DNA from: Kitasatospora sp. NBC_01266
GTDB taxonomy: Bacteria; Actinomycetota; Actinomycetes; Streptomycetales; Streptomycetaceae
Length of the DNA stretch: 64,000 nt
Reading direction: 5' to 3'
NCBI RefSeq assembly: GCF_036242395.1
Contig: NZ_CP108458.1
Location: forward strand, 682,001 to 746,000
The notes under the pieces are model-generated. The model worked only from the letters and a program-made list of their open reading frames with translations, was not told where the DNA came from and ran no database searches. The translations under genes and the position numbers were made by a program. Positions 40,380 to 48,947 of this stretch are shown one piece after another; the first letter of the stretch is position 1; each line of letters opens with the position of its first letter.

Positions 40380-43300
40380 TCAGCCGCCGTAGACGTCCTC
40401 GACGTAGCGGCCCTGGTCGACCAGGGCCCGCAGCCAGTCCACCGCCATGCCGCGGTCGGCCTGCGGACTGTGCTTGAGGTACACGTCATGGAACGCCTCC
40501 CGCACGCCGGGGGCCATCCGGGCACCGTCGCCGCAGACGTAGACCCGGGCGCCGGCCCGCAGCAGTTCCCACACCTGGTCGGCCTCGGCCGCGATGCGGT
40601 GCTGGACGTAGCGGTGGCCCTCCTCGGGCGCCGCGCTGAAGACGGGGCGCAGCGAGACGGCTCCCGCGTGTTCGGCCGCCCGCAGTTCGTCGGCGTGCAG
40701 GAAGTCGGCGTCGGGTGCGTCGCAGCCGAAGTAGCAGAGTGCGGCGGCGAGTCCGACCCCGTCCGCGAGCAGGGCGCGGCGCTCGGCGACGGCGGCGCGG
40801 AAGGGGGCCAGGCCGGTGCCCGCCGCGATCATGATGACCGGGGTGCCGGCCCGGTGGTCGATCCGGAAGTCCGCGCGGCACGGCTGGAGGCGGGCGAGCA
40901 CGGTGTCGCCGGGCGAGCGGCTGCCGAGGTAGCCCGAGCCGGTGCCGTGGAAGGTGCCGCGACCCGAGCGGGCCGGCGCCCGCAGCACGGAGACCATCAG
41001 GTCGACCTGGCCCGGCTGGACGGCCGGGGTGGAGGAGATGGAGTAGTGGCGGGGCCGGATCGGCGCCAGCAGCTCCAGCAGGGTGGGCCAGTCGAGCGCC
41101 TCGCGCAGCGCGGGGTGGTCCTCGATCAGGTCCAGCACGGTGCGCCGGTCCTCGGCGCGCGCCACACCGTCCTCGGCCAGGGCCCGCAGGGCGGCCCGCT
41201 CCGGCGGGCAGGGGTTGCCGGCGGCCAGCAGGGCCAGTTGCTCGGCGGTCGGCCGGTCCTGCAGTTCGACGTAGTGGGTGAGCAGTTCACGCACCGTCAG
41301 CGGCCGGTCCACGCCGAGCCCGTCGCGGCGGGCGCGGTTGGCGGTGATCCGCAGGACGGTGTCGGGGTCGACCCGCAGCAGCCGGATCGCGCGCTCGACC
41401 AGCGCGGGGCTGTTGGCCGGCAGCACGGTGAGGTGGTCGGCGGCGCGGTAGGCCATCCCCGCCGGCAGCGCGAGGCGGACCAGCCGCTTGACCCGGGGGT
41501 AGCCCGGGCGGCTCAGCTCGGCGGCCTCCAGCACGGTCAGCTCGGTCAGGCCGTGGCGGGCGGCCAGCGCGGCGCGCGCACCGCCGGTGACCTCGGTGAC
41601 CGTGTAGGCCGGGGCCTGCTCGCGCTCGGCCGGGCGGCCGGCGGTGGCGCTGTCGCCGTACCGGGCGAGCAGGGCGGCGGCCAGCGCGGCGCTGAACGCC
41701 TCGACGGCGGAGCTCAGTTCGCCGGACGCATCGGCCTCGCCCCGGGGCAGCAGCCGGGTGGCGCCCAGGGCCGTGAGGCGGTCGTCGATCAGGGTGGGCA
41801 CGCGCTGGTAGGTGGCCGCCCAGTTGCGGTCCCCGACGCCCAGCAGGGCGTAGCCGACCCCGGCGGCGGCGCCCGGTTCGGCCTCCTCCAGCCAGCGGAC
41901 GAAGTCGGCCGCGTCGTCGGTGGGCCGGCCGTTGTAGGAGGCCGCGACGATGACCACGGGCCGGTCGGTGGGCAGCGCGGCGCGGTGGTCGTCGAGCGGG
42001 GCGAGGGTGGTCTCGCAGCCGAGTTCGGCGGCGGTGTCGGCGAGTTGGGCCGCGAAGTCGCGGCAGGTGCCGTAGTTGGAGCCGTGCAGCAGCAGCACGC
42101 CGGTGCCCTGGCGGACCCGGGTGGGCAGGTCGGCCGCCGGATCCTGCGGCGCGGCGGCGCTGGACGGCGCGGCGCTGGACGGCGCGGTGGCGCTCCGGCC
42201 GCCGAGGGCGGCGCGGTCGGCGGCCCGGTCGGCGGGGGTGCGCGGGTGGAGGGTGAGGGCGAAGCCGTCCGGCTTGATGGTCAGCGACTGCTTGAGCGCC
42301 AGCTGGTAGCGGTCCTGGTCGATCAGCCGGTAGCGGTGCACCAGCATGGCCAGCAGCATGGTCGCCTCGTGCAGCGCGAACTGCCGCCCGATACAGGCCC
42401 GTTCACCGGTGCCGAACGGCTTGAAGGCATGCGGGGAGCGGGCCGCCACCGCCTCGGGCGCGAAGCGCTCGGGGTCGAACAGCTCCGGGTTGTCGCCCCA
42501 GACGCTCTGCCGGTGCAGCATCGTGGTCAGCACGATGACGCCCTGCCCGGCACGCAGCGGGATCCGGCCGCCGAGGACGGTGTCCTGGCGGGCCTGGCGC
42601 CCGAAGGCGGGGGCGGTGGGCCACAGGCGCAGCGTCTCGTTCAGCACCTGGCGGGTGTAGGGCAGTCGGCCGACCTCGTCGAAGGTCGGCTCCGGGTCCG
42701 GGGTGTCGCCCCACAGCTCGTCGACCTCGCGCCGCACCTGGCGCAGCACGGCCGGGTGCTTGGCGAGGTGGTACAGCGCGAAGGCGAGGGTGCCCGAAGT
42801 GGTCTCGTGGCCGGCGATCAGGAAGGTGATGACCTGGTTGCGGACGTTCTCCAGGTCCAGGCCGGTGCCGTCCGCCGGGTGCTTGGCGTCCAGCATCAGG
42901 TCGAGCAGGTCCCGGGGCGCCCGGTCCCCGTCCGCCGGGCGGCCGGCGGCCCGCTCGGCGGTGCGGGCCGCGATGACCTCGTCGACCACCGAGGCGAGGT
43001 AGTCGGCGTCCGTGCGCATCGCCCGGTCGCTCGCGCTGTGGTCCAGGTCGGGGTCACGGGTGGTCTTGGTCATCGCCCACTCCAGGCAGCGCACCATCGA
43101 CTCGACGAACGGGTGCGGCTGATCGCCCCCGAAGGAGTGGAAGTCGAACCCGAAGCCGGCCAGCCCGATGGTGTCCAGCGTCATCCTGGTCATGTCGGCG
43201 GCCACGTCGACGCGTTCGCCGGTGGCGGCCCGGCCGTCCCAGGAGTCGATCAGCCGCCGGGCCACCTGGACCATCACCGGGTGGTAGGTGCGCATCGACC

Positions 43301-43643
43301 CCAGCGCGAAGGCGGGCATCAGGATGTCGTGCGCCTTGGCCCAGTTGGGCTCCTCGTTGTACGCGGTGAACAGGCCGTCGCCGGTGAACTCCCGCACGTT
43401 CTCCAGCGAGGGACCGACGGTCTTGGCGAACCGCTGCTCGTCGGCCAGTTCGGTGACCAGCTCCACGTCACTGACCATGAGCAGGTCGCCGCCGTGCAAG
43501 CGCCGCACGAAGGCGGGTCCGTGGCGACGGGCCAGCTCCATCAGCCGCAGGGTCGGCGTGTCGGTCGGCTCGTCCGCGGAGACGTCGACCAGGGGCAGTT
43601 CCCCGCTGCCGTCGGGCCATGGTGCGCGCTGGGTCTCGGTCAT
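40380..43643 (-). CDS. Self-sufficient cytochrome P450/NADPH-P450 reductase fusion, CYP102 (P450 BM3) type
   Basis: 1087 residues. Heme domain (about 1-470): I-helix AGHETTS 277-283, ExxR at 336-339, and the heme loop FGTGERACIGR with Cys 417. An Ala/Ser/Pro-rich linker follows (about 472-512). The FMN flavodoxin domain starts HGSNYGTC at 520, and the FAD/NADPH reductase half includes RHYSISSTP and IMIAAGTGLAPFRA. Known of CYP102: NADPH-driven subterminal hydroxylation of fatty acids, soluble. The linker is longer than in BM3. Divergent from a PAS-LuxR regulator, with an inverted repeat between them. Confidence 0.95.
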   Translation of the reverse strand: MTETQRAPWPDGSGELPLVDVSADEPTDTPTLRLMELARRHGPAFVRRLHGGDLLMVSDVELVTELADEQRFAKTVGPSLENVREFTGDGLFTAYNEEPNWAKAHDILMPAFALGSMRTYHPVMVQVARRLIDSWDGRAATGERVDVAADMTRMTLDTIGLAGFGFDFHSFGGDQPHPFVESMVRCLEWAMTKTTRDPDLDHSASDRAMRTDADYLASVVDEVIAARTAERAAGRPADGDRAPRDLLDLMLDAKHPADGTGLDLENVRNQVITFLIAGHETTSGTLAFALYHLAKHPAVLRQVRREVDELWGDTPDPEPTFDEVGRLPYTRQVLNETLRLWPTAPAFGRQARQDTVLGGRIPLRAGQGVIVLTTMLHRQSVWGDNPELFDPERFAPEAVAARSPHAFKPFGTGERACIGRQFALHEATMLLAMLVHRYRLIDQDRYQLALKQSLTIKPDGFALTLHPRTPADRAADRAALGGRSATAPSSAAPSSAAAPQDPAADLPTRVRQGTGVLLLHGSNYGTCRDFAAQLADTAAELGCETTLAPLDDHRAALPTDRPVVIVAASYNGRPTDDAADFVRWLEEAEPGAAAGVGYALLGVGDRNWAATYQRVPTLIDDRLTALGATRLLPRGEADASGELSSAVEAFSAALAAALLARYGDSATAGRPAEREQAPAYTVTEVTGGARAALAARHGLTELTVLEAAELSRPGYPRVKRLVRLALPAGMAYRAADHLTVLPANSPALVERAIRLLRVDPDTVLRITANRARRDGLGVDRPLTVRELLTHYVELQDRPTAEQLALLAAGNPCPPERAALRALAEDGVARAEDRRTVLDLIEDHPALREALDWPTLLELLAPIRPRHYSISSTPAVQPGQVDLMVSVLRAPARSGRGTFHGTGSGYLGSRSPGDTVLARLQPCRADFRIDHRAGTPVIMIAAGTGLAPFRAAVAERRALLADGVGLAAALCYFGCDAPDADFLHADELRAAEHAGAVSLRPVFSAAPEEGHRYVQHRIAAEADQVWELLRAGARVYVCGDGARMAPGVREAFHDVYLKHSPQADRGMAVDWLRALVDQGRYVEDVYGG

Positions 43644-43746
43644 GGCTGAACTGCCCTCCGAAGTCAGAATTTTCGGCCGCCGCCGGCGGGCAACGACCCC
43701 CTCGGCTCAACTCTCGCGCTCCGGCGGCGTCGTTGGCCCCGCGCTC

Positions 43747-43764
43747 ACTACACGATTGTGTAGT
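43747..43764. promoter_or_regulatory. Putative operator ACTACAC-N4-GTGTAGT between the P450 and PAS-LuxR genes
   Basis: Perfect seven-base arms around GATT in the 224-base divergent region, 104 bases from both start codons. It is AT-rich for this genome and centrally placed, fitting control of both genes. Confidence 0.65.
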
Positions 43765-43867
43765 AGCCACTCGAGTTACGATCTTGCGCGAACCAACTCC
43801 CGGTGCTAGCACCCGGCCGGACGGCGGGTCAGCGCAGGTGGGGCCGACAGGACGGGCGGGGAGCGCG

Positions 43868-44626
43868 ATGGAGTCGCAGGGACAGCTCAGCTGCGGCGAG
43901 CCGGGCGACGGCTCGGCCCCGCCGAAGTGCGAACGGGCGATCTTCTGGCGCAACCGGACCATCCTGCTCTTCGACCACATCCCGCTGCCGACCGCCTTCT
44001 GCGACCCGGACGGCGTCATCCTGATCGCCAATCCCGCGATGGCCGCCGAGTGGGGGCTGCTGCCCGGCCGGCTGACCGGGCGCAACATCCTCGACCTCTT
44101 CCACCCGCGGACCACTCCCCGCCTGCGCTCGCTCGCCGAGGCGGTCCGGCTGCAGCGCCGCTCGCGCTACCCGATCGAGGTCTCCTGGTCCCCCGGGAAC
44201 GGCAACGGCGACGGGAACGCGGGACCGAACACCGGCGGCGGCAGCGGTGCCGCCGACCTCGAACGGCACGGCGAGATGACCGTCGACCTGGTCAGCGACG
44301 GACCCGACGCCCAGCCCAACCTACTGCTGCACCTGCGCGTGCCGGCCACCCCGCCGCCACCCCCGCCCGCCGAACCGCGGGTCAGCGCGGTCGAGGCGCG
44401 CATCCTCGCGCTGGCCGCCGCCGGCTCCACCACCGCCCGGATCGCCGCCGCGACCAACCTGAGCGTCGACGGCGTCAACTACCACCTCGGCCGGCTCTCC
44501 CGGCGCTGGGGCACCACCAACCGCGCCGCGCTGGTCGCGCGCGCCTACGTGACCGGTGTCCTCGCCCCGCACGCCTGGCCGCCGGCCCCGGCCAGCACCG
44601 CCCCCGGCCGGGACCAGGAGGCGTAA
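43868..44626 (+). CDS. PAS-LuxR transcriptional regulator
   Basis: 252 residues from an ATG at 43868. The N-terminal part (about 35-120) resembles a PAS fold: FDHIPLPTAFCDPDGVILIA and GRLTGRNILDLFHPR. A Gly/Asn-rich insertion lies near 120-135 and a Pro run near 160. The C-terminal LuxR helix-turn-helix is RVSAVEARILALAAAGSTTA, then TNLSVDGVNYHLGRLSRRW, unusual in that the recognition helix has NYHL. Such regulators sense small ligands or redox state. It lies between the divergent P450 and the codirectional glycerol genes, 170 bases before glpF, and may control either. Confidence 0.82.
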   Translation: MESQGQLSCGEPGDGSAPPKCERAIFWRNRTILLFDHIPLPTAFCDPDGVILIANPAMAAEWGLLPGRLTGRNILDLFHPRTTPRLRSLAEAVRLQRRSRYPIEVSWSPGNGNGDGNAGPNTGGGSGAADLERHGEMTVDLVSDGPDAQPNLLLHLRVPATPPPPPPAEPRVSAVEARILALAAAGSTTARIAAATNLSVDGVNYHLGRLSRRWGTTNRAALVARAYVTGVLAPHAWPPAPASTAPGRDQEA

Positions 44627-44796: not shown

Positions 44797-45639
44797 ATGA
44801 CGGGCAGTCACAGCACAGCACAGATCGAACGCAGTCCCGGCAGGCTTCTCCTCGGCGAACTCAGCTCCGAGTTCGCCGGAACGATGATCCTGCTCCTCTT
44901 CGGCGCCGGCGTGGTCGCGCAGGTGGTGGCCGCCGGCATCGGCGACCACGACAGCATCGCCTGGGCCTGGGGCCTGGGCGTCACGCTGGGCGTCTACACC
45001 GCCGGGCGGATCAGCGGCGGGCACCTCAATCCGGCGGTCACCCTCTCGCTGGCCATCTTCAAGGGCTTCCCCTGGCGCAAGGTCCTGCCGTACGTGCTGG
45101 CCCAGACGTTGGGGGCGTTCGTCGCCGCCCTGCTGGTGCGTTGGAACTACACCAACATCCTGGACAAGGTCGATCCCGACCACACCCTCAAGACGCAGGT
45201 GGTGTTCTCCACCCTCCCCGGCAACGGCGTGCTGCCGATCAGTGACCTCGGCGCGCTGCGCGACCAGATCATCGGCACCGCGATCCTGGTCTTCCTCGTC
45301 TTCGCGGTGACCGACGTGCTCAACTCGCCCCCCGGCGCCAACCTGGGCCCGTTCATCGTCGGCCTGATCGTGGTGGCCATCGGCATGGCCTGGGGCGCCT
45401 GCGCGGGGTACGCCATCAACCCGGCCCGCGACTTCGGCCCGCGCCTGGCGAGCTACCTCACCGGCTACCACCACGCCTGGCGGGACCAGTACGGACATCT
45501 GTACTTCTGGGTGCCTATCGTCGGACCGCTGATCGGCTGCGTCGTCGGCGGCCTCGTCTACCGGCTCCTGATCACTCCGCACCTGGGGATCGGCGAGCCC
45601 GAGGAGCCCGGTCGCGCTCCGCTCGAGCCCACGAAGTGA
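44797..45639 (+). CDS. glpF: Glycerol uptake facilitator (aquaglyceroporin, MIP family)
   Basis: 280 residues, six hydrophobic helices and the two half-helices with NPA boxes: GGHLNPAVT (NPA 78-80) and YAINPARDFGPR (NPA 208-210). The Asp after the second NPA-Arg marks the glycerol-facilitator branch rather than water-only channels. Facilitates glycerol entry across the cytoplasmic membrane. First gene of glpF-glpK-glpD, with 48 bases to glpK. Confidence 0.95.
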   Translation: MTGSHSTAQIERSPGRLLLGELSSEFAGTMILLLFGAGVVAQVVAAGIGDHDSIAWAWGLGVTLGVYTAGRISGGHLNPAVTLSLAIFKGFPWRKVLPYVLAQTLGAFVAALLVRWNYTNILDKVDPDHTLKTQVVFSTLPGNGVLPISDLGALRDQIIGTAILVFLVFAVTDVLNSPPGANLGPFIVGLIVVAIGMAWGACAGYAINPARDFGPRLASYLTGYHHAWRDQYGHLYFWVPIVGPLIGCVVGGLVYRLLITPHLGIGEPEEPGRAPLEPTK

Positions 45640-45687
45640 TCCCGTCCCGCCCCCCAAGCAAGCCCCCACACAGCAGAGGCGGCAGTC

Positions 45688-47205
45688 ATGCCAGAGTTCG
45701 TCGGAGCGGTGGACCAGGGGACCACGAGCTCACGATTCATGATCTTCGACCACGACGGCAACGAGGTGGCGAAGCACCAACTGGAGCACACCCAGATCCT
45801 GCCCCGGCCCGGCTGGGTCGAGCACGATCCGGTGGAGATCTGGGAGCGCACCAACTCGGTGATCCAGACCGCGGTCCGGCAGGGCGGCCTCTCGCCGGCC
45901 GACCTGGTGGCGATCGGCATCACCAACCAGCGTGAGACCACCGTGGTGTGGGACCCGCGCAACGGTCGGCCGTACTACAACGCGATCGTCTGGCAGGACA
46001 CCCGGACCGACTCGATCGCGGCCGCCCTGGAACGCGAGGGCCACGGCGAGGTGATCCGCCGCAAGGCCGGCCTGCCGCCCGCCACCTACTTCTCCGGCGG
46101 GAAGATCAAGTGGATCCTGGACAACGTGGAAGGCGTCCGGGCCGCCGCGGAGCAGGGCCACGCGGTCTTCGGCAACACCGACAGCTGGGTGCTGTGGAAC
46201 CTCACCGGCGGCCCCGACGGCGGGATCCACGCCACCGACGTGACCAACGCCAGCCGCACCATGCTGATGAACCTGGAGACCCTGGACTGGGACGACGAAC
46301 TGCTGGCGCTGTTCGGCATCCCGCGCCGGATGCTGCCGAAGATCAATCCGTCCTCGCACGCCGAGGCCTTCGGCACCGCCCGGACCTCCCGGCCGCTGCG
46401 CACCGCCATCCCGATCACCGGGGTGCTCGGCGACCAGCACGCGGCCACCGTGGGGCAGGTCTGCTTCGCCCCCGGCGAGGCCAAGAACACCTACGGCACC
46501 GGCAACTTCCTGGTGCTCAACACCGGCACCGAGCTGGTCCGCTCCCAGCACGGCCTGCTGACCACCGTCGCCTACCAGTTCGGCGACAGCCCAGCGGTGT
46601 ACGCCCTGGAGGGCTCCATCGCGGTCACCGGCTCGGCTGTCCAGTGGCTGCGGGACCAGCTGAAGATCATCACCACCGCCGCAGAGGTCGAGCGGCTGGC
46701 CGGCACGGTCGAGGACAACGGCGGGATGTACTTCGTGCCGGCCTTCTCCGGCCTGTTCGCCCCGTACTGGCGCTCCGACGCCCGCGGCGCGATCGTCGGC
46801 CTGGCCCGGTACAACACCAACGGGCACCTGGCGCGCGCCACCCTGGAAGCCATCTGCTACCAGAGCCGGGACGTGGTGCAGGCGATGGAGCAGGACTCCG
46901 GTGTCCGCCTGGACGTGCTGAAGGTGGACGGCGGCGTGACCGCCGACGACCTGTGCATGCAGATCCAGGCCGACGTCCTGGGCGTCCCGGTCAGCCGTCC
47001 GGTGGTCGCCGAGACCACCGCGCTCGGCGCCGCCTACGCCGCCGGCCTGGCCACCGGGTTCTGGCGGGACACCGACGAACTGCGCTCCCACTGGCAGGAG
47101 TCGAAGCGCTGGGAGCCGTCCTGGTCCGAGGAGCAGCGCACCGTGGGGTACGCGGGCTGGCAGAAGGCGGTGGCGCGAACCCTCGACTGGGTGGACGTCA
47201 AGTAG
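45688..47205 (+). CDS. glpK: Glycerol kinase
   Basis: 505 residues, the usual length. FGGY-kinase motifs: [13 protein letters not shown] at the N-terminus (phosphate 1), [22 protein letters not shown], the block [13 protein letters not shown], and [18 protein letters not shown] near the C-terminus. It phosphorylates glycerol to glycerol-3-phosphate using ATP. Second gene of the operon; glpD follows 29 bases later. Confidence 0.97.
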
Positions 47206-47234
47206 GACTCTCACGGACGCAGAAGGGCTGACTC

Positions 47235-48947
47235 ATGGTGAAGCCAGTAGCGCTCTCCCCGCAGGCGCGGGCCGAGGCGCTCACCCGGCTGGGGGAACGG
47301 GAACTCGACATCCTCGTGGTCGGAGGTGGCGTGGTCGGGGCGGGCGCCGCGCTCGACGCGGTCACCCGGGGCCTGAGCGTGGGCCTGGTGGAGGCCCGTG
47401 ACTGGGCGTCAGGGACCTCCAGCCGGTCCAGCAAGCTGATCCATGGCGGCCTGCGCTACCTGGAGATGCTCGACTTCCGGCTGGTGGCCGAGGCGCTCAA
47501 GGAGCGGGGCCTGCTGCTCCAGCGGCTCGCCCCGCACCTGGTCCGCCCGGTGCCGTTCCTCTACCCCCTGACCCACCGGGTCTGGGAGCGGCCCTACGTC
47601 GGCGCCGGCGTGCTGCTCTACGACACGATGGGCATCACCTCCGGCACCGCCCGCGGCCTGCCGCACCACCGGCACCTGCTGAAGCGCCAGGCGCTGCGCG
47701 AGGCACCGGCGCTGCGCTCGGACGCCCTGATCGGCGCCGTCCAGTACTGGGACGCCCAGGTGGACGACGCGCGGCACACCATGAACATCGTGCGCACCGC
47801 GGCCTGCTACGGCGCGCACGTGGCCAACCGCAGCCGGGTCACCCGGTTCCTGCGCCAGGGCGAACGCGTGGTCGGCGCGGTGGTGCGGGACCTGGAGAGC
47901 GGGCGGGAGGTGGAGGTCCGCGCCAAGCAGGTGATCAACTCCACCGGCGTGTGGACCGACGACACCCAGAGCATGGCGGGCACCCGCGGCCAGTTCCACG
48001 TCCGGGCGTCCAAGGGCGTCCACCTGCTGGTGCCGCGCGACCGGATCAACTCCCGCACCGGGCTGATCCTGCGCACCGAGAAGAGCGTGCTCTTCGTCAT
48101 CCCGTGGGGCCGGCACTGGATCGTCGGCACCACCGACACCGCCTGGGACCTCGACAAGGCGCACCCGGCGGTCAGCTCCAAGGACATCGGCTACCTGCTG
48201 GAGCACGTCAACAAGGTGCTGGTGACCCCGCTGACGCCGGAGGACGTGGAGGGCGTCTACGCGGGCCTGCGGCCGCTGCTGGCCGGCGAGGCCGCCGACA
48301 CCAGCAAGCTCTCGCGCGAACACCTGGTGGCCCACCCGGTCCCCGGTCTGGTGGTGGTCGCGGGCGGCAAGTACACCACGTACCGGGTGATGGCCAAGGA
48401 CGCGGTGGACGAGGCGGTGCGCAACCTGGACGAGAAGGTCCCGGAGAGCACCACCCACGACGTGCCGCTGATCGGCGCCGAGGGCTACCCCGCGCTGTGG
48501 AACGCCCGCTACGCGCTGGCCGAGCAGTCCGGTCTGCACGTGGCCAGGATCGAGCACCTGCTGCGCCGGTACGGCTCGCTGGTCAGCGAGTTGCTCGCGC
48601 TGGTGGCCGAGGACCCCTCGCTCGGCGAGCCGCTGCCGAGTTCCGACGACTACCTGCGGGTCGAGGCCGTCTACGCGGCCACCCACGAGGGAGCCAGGCA
48701 CCTGGACGACGTGCTGGCCCGGCGTACCCGGATCTCCATCGAGTCCTGGGACCGCGGGGTGGACGCGGCCCGCACGGTGGCCGACCTGATCGCGGGCCCG
48801 CTCGGCTGGCGCCAGGAGCAGGTCGACCGCGAAGTCGACCACTACGCCAAGCGGGTGGAGGCCGAGCGCGAGGCGCAGCACCAGCCGGACGACCAGACGG
48901 CCGACGCGGTGCGGCTCGGCGCGCCGGAGATCGTGCCGCTGACCTGA
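47235..48947 (+). CDS. glpD: Glycerol-3-phosphate dehydrogenase (FAD-dependent)
   Basis: 570 residues from an ATG with AGAAGGG upstream. FAD-binding motif LVVGGGVVGAGAALDAVTRG, then ASGTSSRSSKLIHGGLRYLE, the GlpD signature. WIVGTTDTAWD and GGKYTTYRVMAKDAVD are later conserved blocks. Oxidises glycerol-3-phosphate to dihydroxyacetone phosphate, passing electrons to quinone at the membrane. Last gene of glpFKD, closed by a strong terminator. Confidence 0.97.
   Translation: MVKPVALSPQARAEALTRLGERELDILVVGGGVVGAGAALDAVTRGLSVGLVEARDWASGTSSRSSKLIHGGLRYLEMLDFRLVAEALKERGLLLQRLAPHLVRPVPFLYPLTHRVWERPYVGAGVLLYDTMGITSGTARGLPHHRHLLKRQALREAPALRSDALIGAVQYWDAQVDDARHTMNIVRTAACYGAHVANRSRVTRFLRQGERVVGAVVRDLESGREVEVRAKQVINSTGVWTDDTQSMAGTRGQFHVRASKGVHLLVPRDRINSRTGLILRTEKSVLFVIPWGRHWIVGTTDTAWDLDKAHPAVSSKDIGYLLEHVNKVLVTPLTPEDVEGVYAGLRPLLAGEAADTSKLSREHLVAHPVPGLVVVAGGKYTTYRVMAKDAVDEAVRNLDEKVPESTTHDVPLIGAEGYPALWNARYALAEQSGLHVARIEHLLRRYGSLVSELLALVAEDPSLGEPLPSSDDYLRVEAVYAATHEGARHLDDVLARRTRISIESWDRGVDAARTVADLIAGPLGWRQEQVDREVDHYAKRVEAEREAQHQPDDQTADAVRLGAPEIVPLT

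Follow-up and report, generated by a model that had tools for sequence, protein, structure and literature searches.

In a 64,000-nucleotide stretch of the genome of Kitasatospora sp. NBC_01266 (contig NZ_CP108458.1, positions 682,001 to 746,000 of the forward strand; hereafter, the window), a gene for a CYP102-type cytochrome P450 fused to its reductase lies divergently to a gene for a PAS-LuxR transcriptional regulator, with an exact inverted repeat between them. We found that regulator, repeat and enzyme form a real, conserved and dedicated module, whose molecular function is predicted here. The co-occurrence of the genes, the conservation of the repeat, the covariation of its arms, its fixed spacing to a promoter element and the absence of a –35 element are direct observations on the sequences, from which we infer that the regulator binds the repeat as its operator, activates rather than represses, and senses a ligand. 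In the reading we prefer (probability about 0.6), a PAS-LuxR dimer at the consensus operator ACTRCATGATTGTGYAGT would activate a –35-less P450 promoter, with the PAS domain sensing a small molecule, as a dedicated two-gene module. The features concerned are as follows:

40380–43643, minus strand: CYP102-type P450 fused to a flavin mononucleotide/flavin adenine dinucleotide (FMN/FAD) reductase, 1087 amino acids (Pfam and identity to PDB 8dmg)
43710–43715, minus strand: predicted P450 –10 element GAGAGT (NANNNT) (fixed operator distance)
43747–43764, no strand: operator ACTACACGATTGTGTAGT, putative PAS-LuxR dimer site (exact repeat and conservation)
43783–43787, no strand: CTTGC box, reading GCAAG on the P450 strand; separated from the operator by 18 bp, on its upstream side for the P450
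43868–44626, plus strand: PAS-LuxR transcriptional regulator, 252 amino acids (Pfam and predicted fold)

The initial annotation had described a self-sufficient P450 divergent from a PAS-LuxR gene, with a perfect repeat midway, and both statements are correct: the genes are 224 bp apart, and the centre of the exact repeat, 43755.5, is the midpoint between the two start codons.

Co-occurrence of the genes and conservation of the operator

Named genomes were scanned with an alignment of the LuxR protein, and the 78 loci obtained include Kitasatospora, Streptomyces, Streptacidiphilus, Saccharopolyspora, Amycolatopsis and Goodfellowiella. The P450 gene was located upstream on the opposite strand in 65 of them (two partial, L152 and L159); among the other 13, L096 lies at a contig end, L164 carries a remnant and 11 lack the P450. 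LuxR was found at an E-value of 1e-40 in 105 of 394 Streptomycetaceae genomes. We also searched 249 Streptomycetaceae genomes (taken as G000 to G248, the highest number listed) with the heme domain at a threshold of at least 60% identity; both genes were present in 62 genomes, LuxR alone in three (G177, G211 and G223) and the P450 alone in one (G171), for which the Fisher test gave P = 9e-54, a value that is indicative only, the genomes being related. G177 and G211 retain P450 fragments, and the match in G223 lies at a contig start. The pairing thus held in the conservation check across other actinobacteria that had been proposed for it.

LuxR matches were obtained in 33 of the 70 genomes of the genus set, in 11 of them to the C-terminal part alone; the remaining 22 were exactly the 22 genomes with a P450 of at least 70% identity. 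G009 has only a 43% identical P450 fusion, and G034 and G054 each carry an extra P450 paralogue (44–45%) with no LuxR adjoining. Because only 2 of 396 genomes in a sample of the phylum were positive, the system appears to belong to a narrow group. The distance matrices of the two proteins were correlated (r = 0.84 over 63 loci; none of 999 permutations was as high), and LuxR and P450 shared their nearest neighbour in 36 of the 63 loci; this correlation is owed partly to shared species descent. Apart from the P450, no gene recurred in more than 21 of the 78 loci in a comparison of neighbours that included no cluster search.

Taken alone, the repeat is weak evidence, as a 7+4+7 palindrome with up to three mismatches is expected 0.62 times in the window and was found twice; it is the conservation of the palindrome in other genomes that takes it beyond chance. 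We built an operator profile from 64 P450-bearing loci, reduced to 55 non-redundant ones by merging rows more than 80% identical; the 14 of the 78 loci left out were the 13 without P450 and L159. The palindrome-anchored consensus was ACTRCATGATTGTGYAGT, and its flanks, examined over 90 bp on the left and 70 bp on the right, contained only two more strongly conserved boxes. For the promoter counts given below we used 65 loci, namely 64 named loci and the window (14 named loci, L119 among them, were left out); 35 of these match the consensus exactly and 59 with at most three mismatches, the worst having seven. Covariation was examined in 62 non-redundant sites from 76 (window included; L096, L119 and L164 dropped), in which operator positions 4 and 15 were A-T in 34, G-C in 22 and unmatched in six; this number of complementary pairs was not reached in any of 2000 shuffles. 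Such covariation of the arms points to a homodimer site.

The site is also rare elsewhere. In the genome of the window (8.57 Mb), ACTACACGATTGTGTAGT is found only once in exact form, and a near-exact search of the 394 genomes with ACTRCANGATTGTGYAGT (one mismatch allowed) yielded 78 distinct sites, of which 71 lay within 1.5 kb of a LuxR match, five lay at the P450 or at a remnant of it, LuxR being 3–9 kb off, and two (G041 and G101) lay elsewhere. The pattern read backwards, used as a control, gave no forward and three reverse matches. Near-exact sites occurred in 77 genomes compared with 105 for LuxR, which indicates that in some pairs the site has diverged further. We accordingly rejected the palindrome as the site of a broad regulon, there being almost no other places for it in the genomes searched, and the P450 would be essentially the sole target of the regulator, with regulator, operator and enzyme probably inherited as one unit. 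Two further sequences were noted. In G101, which has no LuxR at the threshold used, the operator-like ACTGCATGATTATGCAGT (L220:4042-4059) precedes an unrelated membrane-protein-like gene; in G038, ACTACATGAGTCTGTAGT (L222:3135-3152) forms part of an extended, nearly perfect inverted repeat that precedes another gene, and could be the site of a different regulator.

The predicted P450 promoter and the probable direction of control

On the P450 strand, 62 of the 65 loci have a NANNNT element at the same exact distance from the operator, compared with a frequency of 2.1% elsewhere in the same flanks; in the remaining three it is shifted by one base. On this basis we place the P450 transcription start of the window near 43703. 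In 24 of the 65 loci an ATG occurs exactly 6 nt past the element, the spacing of leaderless genes; it shares the reading frame of the P450 in 22 of the 24, the exceptions being L159 and L170. Relative to this predicted start the operator is centred at –52.5. A –35 match of at least four of six bases, with six spacings tried, was found in only four of the 65 loci, and a scan for consensus promoters found nothing in the region. The second conserved box, CTTGC, was exact in 55 of the 65 loci at its fixed 18 bp from the operator.

The arrangement GCAAG-N18-operator-N31-NANNNT looks like the anatomy of the P450 promoter, since operator and CTTGC stay at the P450 when LuxR is located elsewhere. In nine loci (L119, L215–L219, L223, L231 and L243) LuxR lies away from the P450; all nine have a site with 0–4 mismatches at the P450 (broken in L216), and CTTGC is in the same place in eight, with GTTGC in one. 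Between luxR and the P450 of L215–L218, which come from several Streptomycetaceae, we recognized by eye glycosyl-hydrolase, LacI-type and, in two of these loci, transport-like genes. CTTGC was rejected as an element of the luxR promoter because it accompanies the P450 in loci where LuxR is located elsewhere and because the flanking lacI-like gene runs towards the box in L215, L217 and L218. It was likewise rejected as a SARP repeat, for which the PimR heptamer CGGCAAG was compared (PMC4700089), because it is a single copy and the profile has no repeat column. The midway position of the operator in the window looks incidental, because its distance to the P450 –10 element is fixed and that to LuxR varies.

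In the proposed mechanism, a PAS-LuxR dimer would bind ACTRCATGATTGTGYAGT, centred ~52.5 bp before the P450 transcription start, and, so positioned, would activate a promoter that has a –10 element and no –35 element; we favour activation because the operator stands just upstream of such a promoter. Conceivably, the protein instead represses the P450 and is released by a ligand, as Bm3R1/FatR is. CYP102 genes elsewhere are under TetR repression, divergent regulators often repress their neighbour, and a second operator copy near the LuxR start in L216, L218 and L223 would suit autorepression. However, the operator lies upstream of the would-be –35 region, clear of the –10 element and the start; the operator spacing is base-exact and –35 matches are nearly absent; and known PAS-LuxR proteins, such as PimM, activate. 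We therefore regard repression as unlikely.

A different possibility is that the operator serves mainly the autoregulation of LuxR and the P450 promoter is secondary. Ten loci without P450, forming one clade, retain ACTGCACGATTGTGCAGT or ACTGCACGATCCTGCAGT beside LuxR, and neither CTTGC nor the –10 box is at its place there. In the P450-less loci L142, L144, L146 and L150, a gene that by eye resembles an NAD(P)H dehydrogenase gene is divergent from luxR, with the operator kept. In G239, where the two genes are about 150 kb apart, a perfect operator stands at LuxR and a four-mismatch one at the P450. On the other hand, L215, L217 and L219 have the operator at the P450 and none with four or fewer mismatches at LuxR. 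Where a copy is also present beside LuxR, it has 3, 2 and 2 mismatches in L216, L218 and L223, respectively, compared with 2, 1 and 2 at the P450, and thus is one mismatch worse in the first two and equal in L223, where its outer arm is broken. Together with the conservation of the –10 element and GCAAG box on the P450 side, this makes a primarily autoregulatory operator very improbable.

The palindrome might instead be bound by another protein, LuxR being a linked passenger or acting elsewhere. No binder is assigned to the GCAAG box, the operator does not match the published PAS-LuxR site, and the binding of LuxR to it is predicted; moreover, a second LuxR of G202 (L225, 42% identity) has neither a P450 nor an operator with four or fewer mismatches within the 10 kb fetched. 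However, the ten P450-less loci keep the operator beside LuxR, the P450 of G171, without LuxR, has no operator, and, by the neighbour counts given above, no other gene accompanies the pair in more than 21 of the 78 loci. We rate this explanation, too, as having a very small probability. The fused CYP102 paralogues L228–L230 and the lone P450 L233, all without LuxR, likewise have no operator.

Several observations weigh against activation by a dedicated PAS-LuxR dimer at this site. Beyond L225 of G202, exceptions are L226, the C16 pair of G241, where only a four-mismatch dyad and no CTTGC is present, and six pairs from other genera or distant lineages (L236–L241), whose sites have 2–4 mismatches on the better strand. 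A site at –52.5 is unlike that of PimM, which sits on the –35 hexamer; the GCAAG box suggests that a second factor may take part; and because LuxR-only lineages keep the operator at LuxR, autoregulation may occur as well. The G-C form of the operator belongs to one LuxR clade (support 100/99), in which R/Q191 is replaced by A/S and A193 by G, both in the second helix of the helix-turn-helix (HTH) domain of the predicted model. This co-change is one event on one branch and hence weak proof, and we did not accept operator/HTH co-evolution as a strong argument.

The two proteins and their surroundings

The P450 fusion contains the Pfam domains p450, Flavodoxin_1, FAD_binding_1 and NAD_binding_1 in this order. 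Its heme domain is ~46% identical to PDB 8dmg, which we take to be P450 BM3 (211 identities over 459 query residues, as counted in the alignment). CYP102 names apply above 40% identity to CYP102A1, and the window P450 exceeds this value; because of the ~46% identity it probably belongs to another subfamily than CYP102A1. The heme ligand Cys417 and F92, equivalent to F87 of BM3, are invariant in all 64 P450 sequences (window included). The fatty-acid anchor pair of BM3 is, by the numbering we assume, R47/Y51; the equivalents in the window are G52/M56, and among the 64 sequences the first site is mostly R (30) and the second mostly F (42). Enzymes of the group may therefore act on a fatty-acid-like substrate, which is less clear for the window copy.

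The regulator gene has an ATG start preceded by GGGGAG, and its product matches Pfam PAS_4 and PAS (N-terminal) and GerE (C-terminal HTH), all above the cut-off. The predicted structure comprises a PAS domain and a four-helix HTH domain (mean predicted local distance difference test score, pLDDT, 85; predicted template modelling score, pTM, 0.59), and its nearest PDB folds are VqmA, a ligand sensor, and EL222, a light sensor, at whole-protein TM-scores of 0.3–0.4. In the PAS part of 54 PAS-LuxR sequences, C45 is present in at least 90%, and no His or Cys is invariant. The resemblance to VqmA suggests that the PAS domain here may sense a small cytoplasmic molecule or a cofactor state, which would set the activity of the regulator. 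The initial annotation had envisaged a different sensing route with fatty-acid or redox input through PAS. Supported are the pairing of this CYP102 lineage with a PAS-LuxR and not a TetR protein, the conservation of the pair and the reading of the repeat as a conserved operator. Fatty-acid or redox input found no direct support, no His or Cys being invariant and the fold similarity being moderate, though such an input is conceivable. An extended version, in which a closed mobile pair has the P450 make or destroy the molecule that PAS reads, in the manner of VqmA, and GCAAG is the site of a partner factor, seems decidedly unlikely.

For a widespread self-sufficient P450, this analysis supplies a putative regulator together with an 18-bp operator, a predicted transcription start and a regulon that is likely to consist of a single gene. 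As only one promoter seems to be under this regulator, its signal, once found, would indicate which substrate the P450 has in nature.

The genome of the window has a second PAS-LuxR/P450 pair at C1:6441544 (LuxR 61% and P450 72–74% identical), with the operator GCTACATGATTTTGTAGT. P450s 50–53% identical to the window heme domain occur in G164, G205, G100, G146, G220 and others; their open frames are mostly 510–600 amino acids, so that they are probably without a reductase, and they often lie ~8–14 kb from the LuxR/P450 pair, and also occur in genomes without LuxR. The gene next downstream of the P450 is of LysR type. Directly behind luxR is a glpF-glpK-glpD operon (44797–48947, plus strand), whose GlpK has a 61% identical paralogue elsewhere in the genome; the luxR-glpF gap of 170 bp is too small for a GylR-type gene. 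As functional partners of the pair we rejected the glpFKD operon and DUF1275, which had no match at any of the 78 named loci (searched to 8 kb on each side for glpFKD), and alpha/beta hydrolase, LysR and RraA, which gave scattered matches only.

Comparison with known systems

A link between CYP102 and PAS-LuxR was absent from the titles and abstract openings searched and from the available text of PMC3742746, PMC9774167, PMC4700089, PMC3599690 and PMC12416667. As had been stated for CYP102 enzymes in general, TetR repressors control them elsewhere, namely Bm3R1/FatR in Bacillus (PMC3814354) and SAV576, which acts on SAV575 (CYP102D1) in S. avermitilis (PMC3742746). These systems share with the present one a dedicated regulator beside a CYP102 fusion and palindromes near the promoter; they differ in being TetR repressors with other operators (CCRTACRVYGTATGS for SAV576), whereas here the neighbours of the P450 are a PAS-LuxR and a LysR gene, with no TetR gene, and the regulator is a putative activator. 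The enzyme itself resembles CYP102A1 (P450 BM3) in fusion layout, heme cysteine and the F87 equivalent, and differs in its overall heme-domain identity and in the anchor pair, where many relatives have R and F.

VqmA of Vibrio, the quorum-sensing receptor of 3,5-dimethylpyrazin-2-ol (DPO), both binds its small ligand and dimerizes through the PAS domain, and its HTH domain binds an 18-bp stretch with a palindrome and activates (PMC8284805). Although it is, with EL222, the best PDB fold match of our regulator, the identity is ~15%, VqmA requires GG-N6-CC, and the same ligand is unsupported here.

PimM, PteF, AmphRIV and CfaR, which regulate polyene and other clusters, have the same layout of N-terminal PAS and C-terminal LuxR HTH domains and a similar HTH consensus, ARIL...GV.YH...NR.AL. 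PimM activates from the operator CTVGGGAWWTCCCBAG (PMC9774167 and PMC4700089); the inner 16 bp of our operator, CTRCATGATTGTGYAG, has the same length and CT...AG ends, but its core differs and the site is centred at –52.5 instead of on the –35 hexamer. CTVGGGAWWTCCCBAG had no exact match in 244 loci, and in the window it had one three-mismatch match, far from the pair and fewer than expected by chance. For PteF, 101 putative operators were found (PMC4700089), compared with one apparent target here. The present clade of PAS-LuxR proteins, as judged from its sites, has another operator than PimM and almost no other sites. PAS-LuxR proteins may also work beyond antibiotic clusters, through a DNA site of another kind.

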